From Micrococcaceae bacterium Sec5.7 (GTDB taxonomy: Bacteria > Actinomycetota > Actinomycetes > Actinomycetales > Micrococcaceae), in the NCBI GenBank assembly GCA_039636785.1, contig CP144169.1, positions 3,224,001 to 3,288,000 of the forward strand: a stretch of DNA of 64,000 nucleotides, in the 5' to 3' direction. Each line of letters begins with the position of its first letter. Positions within the stretch are counted from its first letter, which is position 1. Below the pieces are notes generated by a model. That model had not been told where the DNA came from and did not search any database. It saw only the letters and a program-made list of their open reading frames with translations. The position numbers and the translations under genes are program-made. Of the stretch, positions 19,840 through 25,590 are shown in pieces.

Positions 19840-21648
19840 ATGGCCAAGCAGACTTCATTTTTCAGATCAATCAGCCGTCTTTACCCCCATATGAAGCCGA
19901 TCATCCCCCGGCTTTTCATGGGGCTTATCAGTGCGCTGCTGGCAAGCCTCGTGGCGCTCACCATCCCCCAGGTGCTGCGCATCCTGATCAACGATTCGCT
20001 CCAGGCGGGCGGGGCGTCGGACGCTGTGTGGATTGCCGCCGTCGTGATCTTGATTCTCGGCATCGCCGAGGCCGGGCTGGTAGCCCTCCGCAGGTTCTTC
20101 GTCATCAACCCGGCAACCACGGTGGAAACCAGGATGCGGGTTTCGCTCTACGGCCACCTGCAGGACCTCACCGTCTCCTTCCATGACCGCTGGGGTTCCG
20201 GGCAGCTGCTCTCCCGCGCCATGACTGACCTGAACTTCCTGCGTCGCTGGATGGCCTTCGGCGCCATCATGCTGGTGGTCACCACCCTCACCGTGTTGAT
20301 CGGCGTCGCGGTCATGTTCTCCATGAGCTGGCAGCTTGCGCTGATTTTCCTCGCCGCAGCCGTTCCCATCATCATCTACGGCTTCCGCTTCCGGACGCGC
20401 TTCAGCAAGGTGGCCAGGCGCAGCCAGGACCAGGCCGGCGACCTCGCCACCACGGTGGAAGAATCCGTCCACGGCATCCGGGTGCTCAAGGCGTTCGGAC
20501 GCAGCCGCGAGGCCCTGGAGAACTTCAACGAACAGGCCGAGGAACTCCGCCAAACAGAGATCGCCAAGGCCAAACATCTCGCCACCTTCAGCCTGGTGGT
20601 CACCCTCCTCCCCGAGCTGGCTCTCGGTGCCGGGCTGGTGGTGGGAGTGATGCTCGCCGCGAGCGGCCAGCTGAGCATCGGCGCCCTGGTGGCATTCTTC
20701 GCCACCGCGGCAGTGATTGCTGCACCCGTGGAATTCTGCGGCATGCTCCTGGCAATGGCCCTCACCGCCAAAACGGCCGTGGACCGCCACTACGAGGTCA
20801 TGGACTCGGTCAACACCATCACCAGCCCGGACCATCCATCGCGGCCGACAGAGCTCAAGGGCGCCCTCAGCTTCAACAGCGCCACCTTCGCCTTCGAGGA
20901 CGCCCCCGCCAAACCGATCCTCAAGGACATCAGCCTGGACATCCGGCCCGGCGAAACCATGGCGCTCGTGGGCATCACCGGCAGCGGCAAGAGCGCCCTA
21001 CTCCAGCTGGTGCCAAGGCTCTACGAGGTCACCGAAGGCTCCATCAGCATCGACGGCGTGGACCTGCGCGAATTCAGCGTGGAGGAACTGCGCAAAGTGG
21101 TGGGGGTGGCGTTCGAGGACACCACCCTGTTCTCCAGCTCCGTCCGGGACAACGTCCTTCTCGGCGCCGGTGAGCGTACCGATGAAGCACTGGAGGAAGC
21201 GCTCGACGTCGCCCAGGCCCACTTCGCGTACTCCCTGCCGGAAGGCCTGGACACCCTGATCGGCGATGAAGGGCTGAGTCTTTCCGGCGGCCAGCGCCAG
21301 CGCATCGCGCTGGCCCGCGCCATCGCAGCCCGGCCCAAGGTGCTGGTTCTGGACGATCCCCTGTCCGCCCTGGACGTCAACACCGAGGAGCTGGTGGAAA
21401 CACGCCTGCGTGAGGTCCTTGGTGACACCACCACGCTGATCGTCGCCCACCGGCCGTCCACCGTGGCGCTTGCCGACCGGGTGGCGCTGCTTGAGGAGGG
21501 CCGGATCACCGCCGTCGGAACCCATACGGAACTGCTGGCCGAGAACCACCACTACCGCTACGTGATCGCGAGCCTGGACACGGAACCCCGGGACCTGGAC
21601 TCAGAACTATCGGCCCTCGAGGACCAGTCAGAGGAAGTCATCCGATGA
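19840..21648 (+). CDS. ABC exporter subunit A (degenerate ATP site)
   Basis: A 602-residue half-transporter: six membrane helices (about residues 15-310) followed by a nucleotide-binding domain. Walker A is GITGSGKS, the signature is [14 protein letters not shown], and Walker B is [12 protein letters not shown], with Asp where the catalytic Glu normally stands. Together with the next gene this is the pattern of heterodimeric exporters with one consensus and one degenerate ATP site. The stop overlaps the start of subunit B (ATGA). The substrate is not predictable; multidrug or lipid export is typical of the class. Confidence 0.93.
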
Positions 21649-23507
21649 GCACAGCAACCTTCGGCACTGCCAACGAGGACAACGCGCACCTCAGCAAAAG
21701 CGACAGCAAAACCGTACGACGCCGGTCAGTCACCTTGCTGGGGTCGCTGATCCGCCCCGTGCGGCTGCGGTTCTGGCTGACCATCGCCATGGTGGTCCTG
21801 TCGCAGGCCGCCCGCGTGGCCGGGCCGGCGCTGATTGCCTTTGGCATCGACCACGCGCTGCCGGCCCTGCAGGCAGGCGACAATGTCCCGCTGGTGCTGG
21901 CCGGCGTCGCGTACCTTGCCGCTGCAATCGTCACAGCAGGCCTGACGGCCATGTACGTGACGTCCACGGCGAAGCTCAGCCAGGCCATGCTGCTGGATCT
22001 CCGGCTGCGGGTCTTCAGGCACACACAGCGCCTCAGCCTGGAATTCCACGAGAAGTACACGTCCGGCCGCATCATCGCGCGGCAGACCTCGGACCTTGAA
22101 GCACTCCGTGAGCTCCTGGACTCCGGTGTGAGCTCCCTGGCGTCCGGCATGCTGTTCATGGTTTTCACGGCCATCACCGTGTTCGCACTGGACTGGCGCA
22201 GCGGCCTGATGGTGCTTGCTGCCGGCGTTCCGATGTACTTCCTGGCCCGCTGGTACCAGAAGCATTCGCAGATCGCCTTCCGGGAATCGCGTGTGGTCTC
22301 TGCCCGGCTTATTGTCCACTTTGTGGAAACCATGACCGGCATCCGCGCGGTCAAAGCCTTCCGCAAGGAGCGCGAAAACGCCGACGTCTACGGCCAGCTG
22401 TCCGAGGACTACCGCCTGGTGACTGTCCGCTCCATCAACCTCAACGGTATATTCCAGCCCGGACTGGTGCTGATCGGAAACGTCTGCGTGGCCGTGGTGC
22501 TGCTCTTCGGCGGCTTCCGCGTGCTCTCCGGCGAACTTGCCGTGGGTGTGCTGCTGGCGCTGATCCTCTCCACTAAACGGTTCTTCCAGCCCGTGGACCA
22601 GATGGCCATGTTCTACAACTCCTTCCAGAGCGCACAGGCTGCCCTTGAAAAGGTTTCAGGGCTCCTCCAGGAGATCCCCACGGTCCGCCCTCCCAAGAAT
22701 CCGGTGGCTCTCCGCGATGCCCAGGGCGCCATCAATTTCAAGGACGTGGAGTTCGGCTACGGCGACGGGCCCGTGATCATCCCCAAAATGGACCTGCATA
22801 TCCCAGCCGGGCAGACAGTCGCTCTTGTAGGCCAGACCGGCGCGGGCAAATCCACGCTCGCCAAGCTGATCGCCCGCTTCTACGACGTCTCATCCGGTTC
22901 GCTGACTCTGGACGGCGTTGACCTGCGCAACCTCACGACGCCGGACCTGCGCCGGAACGTTGTGATGGTCACCCAGGAGGCGTTCCTGTTCAGTGGTACC
23001 GTGGCGGACAACATCGCACTGGGCCGGCCCGAAGCAACCCGGACGGAGATCGAGGACGCCGCCAGGGCTGTGGGCGCCCACCACTTCATCGCCGAGCTCC
23101 CGGAGGGCTACGACACCGACGTCAACAAGCGCGGCGGCCGCGTTTCCGCCGGTCAGCGACAGCTCATCAGCTTCGCCCGCGCGTTCCTGGCCCGGCCGGC
23201 GGTCCTGATCCTGGACGAAGCAACATCGTCGCTGGACATCCCCTCCGAGCGGCTGGTCCAGAACGGCCTGGCGCGCCTCCTGCGGGGCGCAGGGGACGAC
23301 GGCGGCACTCCCGGCAGTGCCGGTACCCGCAGTGCCGGGCGGACGGCCCTGATCATCGCCCACAGGCTCTCCACTGTGGAGACCGCGGACCGCGTCCTGG
23401 TGGTCCACGACGGACGTGTGGTGGAGGACGGCACGCCTGAAGAACTGATCGGCGGCGGCGGACGCTTCGCGCAGCTGCATGGGGCTTGGAGGGACTCGCT
23501 CGTCTAG
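21645..23507 (+). CDS. ABC exporter subunit B (catalytic ATP site)
   Basis: A 620-residue half-transporter with the same layout. Walker A is GQTGAGKS and Walker B is [12 protein letters not shown] with the catalytic Glu, but the signature is [14 protein letters not shown] instead of LSGGQ. The consensus ATP site is therefore formed by its own Walker motifs and the partner's LSGGQ, while the other site is doubly degenerate. An insert of about 20 Gly/Ala/Thr residues lies between Walker B and the switch His (LIIAHRLST). GAGGAAG precedes the ATG, which overlaps the subunit A stop. Confidence 0.93.
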
Positions 23508-23715: not shown

Positions 23716-23795
23716 GTGTCTCCGGCTTCGGCTGTGGCCGGTTCAGAAGTGCTGATTCGGAAGTTCTGATCACGCATCGGGACAAAGAACTGGCC

Positions 23796-23822
23796 CCGGG
23801 ACATGGTTCGCGCATGTCCCGG
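23796..23822 (-). terminator. Hairpin downstream of the repeat-peptide gene
   Basis: CCGGGACATG and CATGTCCCGG form a perfect 10-bp stem with a 7-nt loop, 71 bp beyond the stop of the minus-strand peptide gene. No clear T run follows. Confidence 0.5.
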
Positions 23823-23892
23823 AGCCTTCGTTCCCTTGCTGGAGGTTTTTGGTCCTGCACCTCAAGAGACCGGTGCGGGCATAACTCGGTTG

Positions 23893-24138
23893 TTACATCG
23901 GGTCCGGCCAGTTGCCGACATTCGTGGTGTATGTCTTGCCGCCCTTGGCGGGGTAGGACATGGGGTCGGGCCAGTTGCCCACGGCATGGGACACCCGCAT
24001 GGGATCCGGCCAGTTACCAACGGCAACAGATGTACCGGCGAGATCGGCGATCGGACCTGCTGACATCACGGCGGGAGCCGCAGCAGAAAATGCCAGTGCC
24101 CCTGCCAGAGCGGCAGCGGAAGCAATCTTCTTCAACAT
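23893..24138 (-). CDS. Exported 81-residue precursor with three VGNWPDPM repeats (candidate signalling peptide)
   Basis: I do not recognise a family. Residues 1-27 form a Sec signal peptide (MLKKIASAAALAGALAFSAA, then APAVMSA). The octapeptide VGNWPDPM then occurs exactly three times, at residues 40-47, 53-60 and 74-81, the last copy being the very C-terminus. Spacers are RVSHA and SYPAKGGKTYTTN. The three DNA copies differ at synonymous positions (AACTGGCCGGATCCC, AACTGGCCCGACCCC, AACTGGCCGGACCCG), so the peptide rather than the DNA is conserved. GAGGAA precedes the ATG, and TTGACA with TACAAT lies upstream. It is divergent from an XRE-TPR regulator. The layout resembles multi-copy pheromone precursors; a secreted structural or antimicrobial peptide is an alternative. 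Confidence 0.8.
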   Translation of the reverse strand: MLKKIASAAALAGALAFSAAAPAVMSAGPIADLAGTSVAVGNWPDPMRVSHAVGNWPDPMSYPAKGGKTYTTNVGNWPDPM

Positions 24139-24178
24139 AAGAGTTCCTCAATACGAGTCGGATTCGTTACAAAGTCAG

Positions 24179-24252
24179 CACTGTCCTTGTTGACATACAT
24201 TGTAAAATGTTTTCCACAGGGACTGTCAAGCATTAAGTACAAAGACTGTCCG
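24179..24252. promoter_or_regulatory. Divergent promoter of the peptide gene and XRE-TPR regulator
   Basis: For the peptide gene (minus strand), TTGACA (24224-24229) and TACAAT (24199-24204) lie 19 bp apart. The palindrome ACATT-GTAA-AATGT (24197-24210) covers that -10. ACTGTC occurs three times in the same orientation (24180, 24222, 24245), and TACAAAG precedes the first and third copies. These are candidate binding sites for the adjacent regulator. Confidence 0.55.
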
Positions 24253-24270
24253 GAATGAGGAGGAAAACCG

Positions 24271-25533
24271 GTGGGGAACGGATTCGGGGAGAAGCTCCGC
24301 GCCGAGCGACTCGAACGTGGGCTGACGCAGGCTGAACTGGGCAGGGACTTGTATTCGCCCAGCTACATTTCCCTGCTGGAAACCGGCCGCCGGGAACCAA
24401 CAGCCGAGGTCATCGAAGAGCTGGCGCGCCGGCTGGAGATGGCACCCAAAGCCCTCGAGGCATGGAGCCAGCCCATCTCCGTCAGCGATGCGGAGTATGT
24501 TCTGGCAGGCCTGTATGCGCGGCAGGCCTGGGATCTGCGGGACTACCCGCTGGCCGCCAGCCATGCCGTAACGGCAGCACGGATCGCGCTGGAGGGAAAG
24601 AACACCAGCGCGTGGTGGAACATGAGCTACATGCAAGCTGAATGCCTCATCAAGCAGGGCGAGTGGCAGGAATGCCGCAAGATCATGCAGCACCTCCTGG
24701 AACACCCCATGGCGGTTGAATCAGCCGGCCTTGGCGTCCGCGCGCGGCAGATGCTCGCCGCAGTCTGCCAGGGGCAGGGCCAGCTGAGCGCCGCCGTCGA
24801 GCATGCGCAGGAAGCGGTGAAGCTGTGCACCCAGCTGCCCCATGGCTCCACACTGATCATCGGCGCGCTCCGCGCCCTGATCGGCGCACTGGCAGAAAGC
24901 GGCCGGCTGGACGAGGCCTGGACCTACTGCGAGGCCATGAACGAGCAGACGGACGAGAACTCAATGTCCCAGCTGGCAGGCGAAGTGGCCTGGGTTATCG
25001 GCAACGTGGCGTTTATGCGGCACGACTACGCCGAAGGCATCAAGTACCACGAGCGGGCGGCCAGGCAACTGTCCCCCGCCAACGACATCGAGCTCTGGGC
25101 CCGCTTTAACAAAGCATCCGCTGCGGTCCGGCTTTCGTCCGGAATTGTGGAGCCGGAGACGCTCGCCTCCATCGAACGCGCCGAACTCGCGCTCTCCATT
25201 GTGGGCGGCAACAAGACCGACGAGCTGGAAGTCGCCTTCATCCGTGCACGCTGGCTCTACCTCACGGGCGACATCGTGGCGGCCGTGCTCAAGCTCCGGG
25301 AAATCCACGCCGAGCGCGCTTCGCTGGCCAAGCACACGGCCGGCGAAGTGTCGCTGCTGCTGGGCAAGTCGCTCAAGGCGGCCGGCGAATCCGAGGAAGC
25401 CCTGGTCCACCTCGAGGACGCCCAAAAGGAATTCAGTGCAGCAGGCGCCTCGGACCGGGTCCAGCAGGCCATGGATGCGGTGCTGGAAATCAAGCTCGCC
25501 CAGCGCCGCGCCGCCGCCGCTGAGGCCAGCTAG
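24271..25533 (+). CDS. XRE-family regulator with TPR domain (RRNPP-like)
   Basis: A 420-residue protein. Residues 4-60 form an XRE helix-turn-helix (LRAERLERGLTQAELGRDLY, then SPSYISLLETGRREPTAEVI). The remainder is a helical TPR-like array, with repeating patterns such as AGLYARQAWDLRDYPLAASH and ALRALIGALAESGRLDEAWT. HTH plus C-terminal TPR is the architecture of PlcR/PrgX/NprR regulators, which bind short re-imported peptides. The GTG start has GGAGG nine bases upstream. It is divergent from the triple-repeat peptide gene with a shared 132-bp promoter. A strong terminator follows. The regulator class is secure; that its ligand is the neighbour's peptide is inference. Confidence 0.9.
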   Translation: MGNGFGEKLRAERLERGLTQAELGRDLYSPSYISLLETGRREPTAEVIEELARRLEMAPKALEAWSQPISVSDAEYVLAGLYARQAWDLRDYPLAASHAVTAARIALEGKNTSAWWNMSYMQAECLIKQGEWQECRKIMQHLLEHPMAVESAGLGVRARQMLAAVCQGQGQLSAAVEHAQEAVKLCTQLPHGSTLIIGALRALIGALAESGRLDEAWTYCEAMNEQTDENSMSQLAGEVAWVIGNVAFMRHDYAEGIKYHERAARQLSPANDIELWARFNKASAAVRLSSGIVEPETLASIERAELALSIVGGNKTDELEVAFIRARWLYLTGDIVAAVLKLREIHAERASLAKHTAGEVSLLLGKSLKAAGESEEALVHLEDAQKEFSAAGASDRVQQAMDAVLEIKLAQRRAAAAEAS

Positions 25534-25563
25534 ACCGGACACGAAACCTGCCGAAACAGAACT

Positions 25564-25590
25564 GCCCCGGCCGAAGCCGGGGCAATTTTT
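25564..25590 (+). terminator. Intrinsic terminator after the XRE-TPR gene
   Basis: GCCCCGGC-CGAA-GCCGGGGC followed by AATTTTTG: a perfect 8-bp GC stem with tetraloop and T run. Confidence 0.92.

Follow-up and report, generated by a model that had tools for sequence, protein, structure and literature searches.

Does a small gene whose product repeats one octapeptide, lying back to back with a gene for an XRE-type HTH protein with TPRs, encode a peptide signal and its receptor? The question is raised by an arrangement in the window, the stretch of 64,000 nucleotides of Micrococcaceae bacterium Sec5.7 that was analysed here. An earlier note on this DNA had described an exported protein of 81 residues with three exact copies of VGNWPDPM, the last one C-terminal and the copies differing only by synonymous changes, divergent from a 420-residue HTH plus TPR gene across a 132-bp gap. 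The ORF sequences, a codon comparison of the three units and Pfam bore all of this out (Table 1). On the comparisons set out below, the locus probably encodes a peptide pheromone and its receptor, which would work like the RRNPP systems of Bacillota.

Table 1. Features of the precursor-receptor locus, in window coordinates
Feature	Position	Strand	Basis
Precursor gene P0001, 81 aa, exported	23893..24138	-	ORF; orthologues at the corresponding position in 25/25 genus genomes and 80/80 named loci
Sec-type signal peptide, residues 1-27	24058..24138	-	Read from sequence; putative cleavage site
VGNWPDPM copy 1	23998..24021	-	Sequence
VGNWPDPM copy 2	23959..23982	-	Sequence
VGNWPDPM copy 3, C-terminal	23896..23919	-	Sequence
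Terminator-like hairpin, 14-bp stem, 3' of precursor gene	23792..23826	-	Pattern scan only
Intergenic promoter region, 132 bp, common to both genes	24139..24270	.	ORF positions, alignment
Conserved operator/promoter-like element TTGACA-N2-CATTGTAAAATG-N14-TGTCAA	24190..24229	.	18-sequence alignment, other genera, class counts
XRE-HTH + TPR regulator P0002, 420 aa, proposed intracellular peptide receptor	24271..25533	+	Pfam, profile, predicted structure
Terminator-like hairpin 3' of receptor gene	25563..25584	+	Pattern scan only

The leader of the precursor, assigned by eye and with a simple hydropathy rule, consists of an MLKK n-region, an Ala-rich core and a VMSA end. The three copies occupy residues 40-47, 53-60 and 74-81, and the stop codon follows directly after the third. 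The mature part had been described as essentially three copies; the copies are indeed exact, but they are separated by spacers of 5 and 13 residues, and therefore the repeat makes up 24 of about 54 residues after the leader, less than half. An open frame antisense to the precursor (23960-24193, plus strand) with a repeated GSGQLP is better explained as a shadow of the repeat than as a gene.

On one side of the locus are a pair of ABC exporter genes and tRNA-Pro, on the other purC and purD, and for this reason it looks more like core genome than like a mobile element. The exporter pair (19840-23507) lies just upstream of tRNA-Pro and the precursor gene in the window and showed no sign of a role in peptide export. 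A phage origin was rejected, as relatives of the receptor were absent from 50,697 phage records and none was confirmed on viral contigs. Besides the exporter pair, purC and purD, the six neighbours scanned with Pfam comprise a molybdopterin oxidoreductase and an asparaginase, with no tailoring enzyme among them. This bears on the possibility that the small gene encodes a toxin, a bacteriocin or a multi-core RiPP precursor, with the XRE-TPR protein as its repressor or immunity-type regulator. An XRE regulator back to back with the gene of a small exported peptide would suit such a system, and RiPPs with repeated cores are also known. Not only is a tailoring enzyme missing from these neighbours, however, the peptide also had no match in PHROGs or NCBIfam and a single sub-cut-off match in Pfam (DUF6635, E 0.0094), and the TPR partners without HTH but with peptide variants of their own, described below, would be left unexplained. 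We regard this explanation as highly improbable.

Above the Pfam cut-offs, the receptor contains HTH_31 (46.7 bits), HTH_3 (41.9 bits), TPR_12, TPR_14, TPR_2 and TPR_6. As it has no leader, it is predicted to be cytoplasmic. The family profile A1 matched 86 PDB sequences, with PlcR as the best match (2qfc, E 2.8e-11, columns 4-205 of 408); the other matches among the 60 listed cover the HTH or the TPRs only. No RRNPP protein, Rap or NprR was present among the 23 PDB matches of profile A5, a TPR-only profile of HTH-less members, which were generic TPR proteins such as TTC29 and LGN (best E 7.5e-6). The PlcR match may therefore rest largely on the HTH.

The receptor was modelled as a TPR superhelix with a mean pLDDT of 78.6. 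Helical repeats start at residue 71, with pLDDT values of 62-97 in blocks of ten residues, and the HTH part is poor (below 50 at residues 1-14 and 16-69). The structural matches listed are TPR superhelices at Z 19-26, among them Rap with peptide (8rte, 4gyo) and NprR (5dbk) at Z 22-22.6. Human LGN scored level with Rap, and thus the structural match indicates the TPR fold and not the function. Foldseek likewise gave generic TPR proteins among the 50 matches listed. PlcR is absent from the VIA structural list, to which we attach no weight either way. In a scan for defence systems (PADLOC), matches to the receptor spanned the HTH only, and an HTH-less paralogue gave one weak match to Csx1 (E 0.002).

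The pair is strictly kept in the genus. A receptor with 78-100% identity was found in all 25 genus genomes searched (the source genome and 24 others), each time with a divergent exported precursor. In 24 of these precursors, [V/I/T]GNWPDP[M/A/V] occurs two to four times, and the remaining one has a single altered copy with the end SGNWPYPV. Among named relatives on Arthrobacter, Pseudarthrobacter and Paenarthrobacter contigs, sampled as the best 80 of 245, a precursor adjoins the receptor at 80 of 80 loci. The script found 78 of these, five of them with a single GNWP unit, and two that start with MIKK (L243, L248) were seen by eye.

Selection on the repeat was estimated from 233 pairs of units within 81 precursors, anchored on Trp only. 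With a pS of 0.51 and a pN of 0.020, pN/pS between units of one precursor is 0.04. A lower value of about 0.007 was rejected as biased, the units having been picked by their own sequence. Between genomes, which is a different kind of comparison, the codon ratios were 0.20 for the leader and 0.13 for the C-terminal eight codons. By this measure, the Trp-Pro unit is under strong purifying selection.

In one genome, a leaderless ORF with four IGNWPDPM units flanked by Arg (L324; G002:C12:297543-297652) lies on the same contig as the cassette at a distance of about 120 kb. No receptor match adjoins it, and it is possibly an orphan sender.

When the search was extended to the bacterial family, 88 of 197 genomes, from 17 of 32 genera, matched the receptor with an E of 1e-20 or lower. 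The tandem WPDP pattern was detected in the DNA of 19 of the 197 genomes, all of which are among these 88. We collected 157 receptor loci, of which 25 are genus orthologues, 12 are genus paralogues and 120 were taken from the listed matches, with part of the listed genus orthologues left out. We scored as precursor a divergent small ORF at most 700 bp from the receptor with WP near its C-terminus or repeated. The script found such an ORF at 122 of the 157 loci, and the same rule gave 13 in the same-strand upstream direction and 10 and 14 downstream. Reading by eye removed L144 (spurious) and L112 (doubtful, NDWPISYPR near the ORF end) and added L109, L146, L156 and L157, which brought the count to 124 of 157; the control matches had no such curation. 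In the wider family, the core common to the precursors shrinks to x-W-P-x. A single WP motif occurs in 44 of 120 scripted precursors, and in 45 of 120 exactly one residue follows the last WP.

The receptors fall into two architectures, which were separated by ORF length, with eight of the HTH-less rows read from possibly late starts. A precursor accompanies 56 of 56 HTH-less relatives and 67 of 98 HTH-bearing ones, and at the other 31 of the 98 none was found. Three fragments (L064, L124 and L146, with a precursor at L146 only) were set aside, and Pfam detected no HTH family in the 14 HTH-less proteins scanned. In a tree of 112 receptors the two classes cluster, with 10 changes where shuffling gave a mean of 50.9, although a few labels are wrong: L032, HTH-less with an over-long start, was counted as HTH-bearing, L146, a fragment of a broken HTH gene, as HTH-less, and the label of L091 derives from a spurious ORF.

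Peptides at HTH-less loci have motifs such as IGWWPN, APGWWPD (four times), VEYWPN, VGNWPY, VGNWPF, GGLWPY and NNNWPL. The genus paralogues are 38-47% identical to the window receptor over the TPR part, and in 12 of 12 genus genomes with a fetched paralogue both loci have a precursor. Their cores differ, with GNWPDP at one locus and GWWP[NDH], YWWPN, EYWPN or DYWPN at the other. At 8 of the 12 genus paralogues (L031-L042), GATAAT is found no more than 70 bases ahead of the point where the HTH-less match starts, in several of them a few bases before the ATG, and leaderless transcripts could be made there. Genus g38 keeps an HTH-TPR receptor with no precursor found at 9 of 10 loci (L065, L068, L072, L075, L078, L079, L080, L083 and L100); the tenth, L063, has WIWPD twice. 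Receptors without a precursor may be listeners or decayed systems.

An exported repeat protein could also serve the envelope, either structurally or by binding metal, glycan or surfaces, with the XRE-TPR gene merely as its regulator. The precursor is exported, contains repeats and adjoins a regulator, as this explanation would have it. On the other hand, many precursors have just one short motif at or near the C-terminus, some have no leader at all, the motif variants differ between paralogous receptors of one genome, and every TPR paralogue that has no DNA-binding domain still keeps its precursor. An envelope function is therefore considered very unlikely.

Some conserved positions of the receptor might contact a peptide. 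W241, G244, N245, W276, N280, A284 and W328 are invariant in the 119 receptors with a precursor. In 33 receptors without one, conservation drops just slightly, which counts against the cassette: N245 is at 82%, N280 at 79%, W328 at 82% and W241 at 97%, and G244, W276 and A284 remain at 100%. According to the earlier note, homologues of the precursor without the repeat or without the regulator would speak against a signal. Both kinds exist in part, as single-WP precursors and as one genome's extra leaderless precursor. These, together with the missing precursors, fit minimal forms, orphan signals and loss, and we do not take them as a refutation.

The intergenic motif was derived from 18 aligned genus sequences, its TGTCAA part following 14 bp further on in the window, and is recognisable in other genera. 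A loose form was found at 51 of 67 HTH receptors with a precursor (29/29 in the window genus, 22/38 elsewhere), at 0 of 56 HTH-less loci and at 0 of 31 HTH receptors without precursor; the motif was defined from part of the loci later counted, and close relatives inflate the counts. As the two other classes score zero, the element fits a site that the HTH protein would use at the precursor promoter. No second site was found in the source genome with up to 3 mismatches or in a gapped form. A regulon defined by this motif was rejected because of the single copy, which leaves autoregulation as the only target suggested. A scan for sigma-70 promoters found 0, with 0.3 expected.

Export by the Sec route does not explain all precursors. 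Among the minimal or leaderless precursors, the one at L086 is MRNFVSFISGRVNWPF. In genus g46, ORFs of about 20 residues that have no leader and VGDWPD or VGNWPD at the end stand beside an HTH-type receptor. Leaderless loci of this genus are L091, L092, L095, L096, L099, L102, L103 and L146, and no exported precursor is found in their place. Signal and receptor could thus be real while the signal acts inside the producer or leaves it through a dedicated ABC exporter; Sec export would then be one route among several, comparable to the case of leaderless communication peptides. The g46 loci and two loci of family f17, with leaderless precursors of about 20-51 residues that end in VGDWPD, VGNWPD or ARGDWP, speak for this, as does the two-gene ABC exporter just upstream in the window. 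Against it, the window genus and most relatives have a clear Sec-type leader, and the divergent-side gene in g46 resembles KsgA rather than an exporter. As an account of the window locus, we give this proposal very little chance.

Is the cassette confined to this family? In family f17, 7 of 99 genomes had a receptor match. Read by eye, 5 of the 10 loci have a precursor and 5 do not; the motifs are VGGSWPT, three or two times (L175, L279), and a C-terminal SDTWPA (L176), and L277 and L278 are the leaderless ones ending in ARGDWP. Inspection by eye found no WP precursor at weaker receptor matches at the level of the order (L178-L183, E 1e-15 to 1e-22). A class-level sample gave a receptor match in 19 of 345 genomes. 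Outside f1 and f17, an exported WP peptide was found at 5 of 15 loci and not at the other 10. These peptides contain DIEWP twice (L285), DIGWP twice (L287), ALNWPKCC (L289) and TLDWPWI (L291), and the one at L294, encoded on the same strand, ends in SIEWP.

Family f37 is taken by eye to be Streptomycetaceae, since the precursor and the receptor start at L287 resemble named Streptomyces ones. A receptor match was found in 18 of its 121 genomes, and 9 of 19 loci (two of the 19 are L287 and L294) have an exported WP peptide, with none at the other 10. Seven of the peptides are encoded upstream on the same strand and have GWP, DWP or EWP as their last three residues; the other two are divergent and contain repeats; both downstream controls gave 0 of 19. 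The scripted matches L311 and L313 were dropped as spurious. Among the precursors in streptomycete-type genomes are ones that end in -IDWP or -IEWP.

The receptor also matched 42 plasmid records; the 15 matches listed are all from Streptomycetaceae, at 25-28% identity, and a plasmid origin of the locus was likewise rejected. Three of the seven Streptomycetaceae plasmid loci read have a WP peptide. On a plasmid of Streptomyces sp. NBC_01006 (WP_331742133.1), the divergent peptide contains DIGWP three times. On those of Streptomyces sp. NBC_00239 (L273, WP_328973789.1) and S. globisporus C-1027 (SGLP1, L321, WP_158514079.1), it contains VEWP twice, one copy being C-terminal. In both of the latter, an acyl carrier protein gene lies between the peptide and the receptor, and the two genes are divergent from the XRE-TPR gene, an arrangement that may hint at a connection to specialised metabolism. 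An ORF ending in DIGWPKR at L274 was left uncounted.

The closest known counterpart is PlcR-PapR of the Bacillus cereus group, in which PapR is a small exported propeptide adjoining PlcR. Like the receptor described here, PlcR has an XRE HTH followed by TPRs, and it is the best PDB match of the HTH-containing profile. The present system differs in belonging to Actinomycetota, in its divergent genes with a common promoter, in its repeated identical signals and in its Trp-Pro core; the receptor is longer (420 aa, compared to 293 aa for 2qfc), and the HTH-less profile has no match to PlcR. NprR-NprX and Rap-Phr share the TPR superhelix that binds a short peptide, here predicted for the receptor, and Rap has no HTH, like the HTH-less paralogues, but gene orientation and peptide code differ. 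RopB, the receptor of a leaderless communication peptide (LCP), is of the Rgg type. As in genus g46, short leaderless precursors stand there beside an XRE-type receptor; this is a system of Bacillota, and no WP code is described in the portion of the source that we cite (PMC10518010). AimR-AimP of the arbitrium system likewise pairs a TPR receptor with a short exported peptide (excerpt of PMC6458997), but is phage-borne, unlike our locus, which has core-genome-like neighbours and for which no phage relative was found. That some known precursors carry several copies of the signal, as the earlier note stated, holds for Rap105-Phr105, where propeptides have identical internal repeats; copies can be identical or nearly so (excerpt of PMC11343458).

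RRNPP(A) receptors are cytoplasmic, have 5-9 TPRs in a right-handed superhelix and, Rap excepted, an N-terminal XRE HTH, and often control the promoter of their own locus; the signal usually forms the C-terminal end of the propeptide. In its predicted TPR superhelix receptor, N-terminal XRE HTH and adjoining leader-bearing propeptide, the locus resembles these systems. Receptors of this type are placed in Bacillota in the cited parts of PMC10075063, PMC9765709, PMC12700828, PMC10518010 and PMC11343458, and a 2026 review speaks of Gram-positives and Firmicutes, the string 'actinobacteri' appearing nowhere in its text (PMC13220807). Actinobacterial signals are typically small molecules, according to an excerpt of PMC10075063. 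They also act between cells in this phylum, but those treated in the cited section of PMC4748050, gamma-butyrolactones and cyclic or modified peptides, are not linear gene-encoded peptides read by a cytoplasmic HTH-TPR receptor; for some genera, the same section names TPR among the domains that predicted components of quorum sensing contain. In the open-licence PMC literature, preprints excepted, no RRNPP-like system of actinobacteria came up, nor any relevant paper with the motif strings of the Trp-Pro peptides, in agreement with the earlier statement that no described actinobacterial system with the VGNWPDPM repeat is known. The cassette would work like RRNPP systems and may share descent with the family of Bacillota.

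The proposal of a peptide-signalling cassette made in the earlier note is strongly supported, at the level of sequence, by the conserved pairing, the paralogue-specific peptides, the purifying selection and the promoter-region motif. Against it stand the 31 HTH-bearing relatives and most receptor-like loci outside the family, where no precursor was found, as well as the lineages with leaderless precursors. In the mechanism that we propose, the small gene would encode a Sec-exported pre-propeptide, from which extracellular proteolysis would set free several short, identical peptides with GNWPDPM at their centre. These would be taken back up, probably via an oligopeptide permease (the source genome has five SBP_bac_5 proteins), and would lodge in the concave groove of the HTH-TPR protein. 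Acting at the common promoter, this protein would form an autoregulatory loop, as suggested by the motif that accompanies HTH and precursor, and it may have further targets beyond the cassette. The Trp-Pro core is common to the family, and specificity would come from the residues around it, which vary by receptor lineage. The HTH-less paralogues that have precursors of their own would be switched by peptide and act through contact with other proteins, in the manner of Rap.

More broadly, we see about even chances that these loci represent an actinobacterial peptide language spanning several orders. It would consist of signals with a Trp-Pro core and one old TPR receptor family with and without DNA-binding domain, in which one conserved pocket reads Trp-Pro and the flanking residues are the private code of a lineage. 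Many genomes would have parallel channels and orphan listeners, with occasional orphan senders, and the streptomycete channel, beside biosynthetic genes at some loci, could gate antibiotic production. If true, this widespread gene-encoded peptide code would make signalling directly testable in Arthrobacter from soil and in streptomycetes that produce antibiotics, with synthetic peptides as cheap probes, and the family would provide a second large test set for the co-divergence of TPR receptors and peptide codes.
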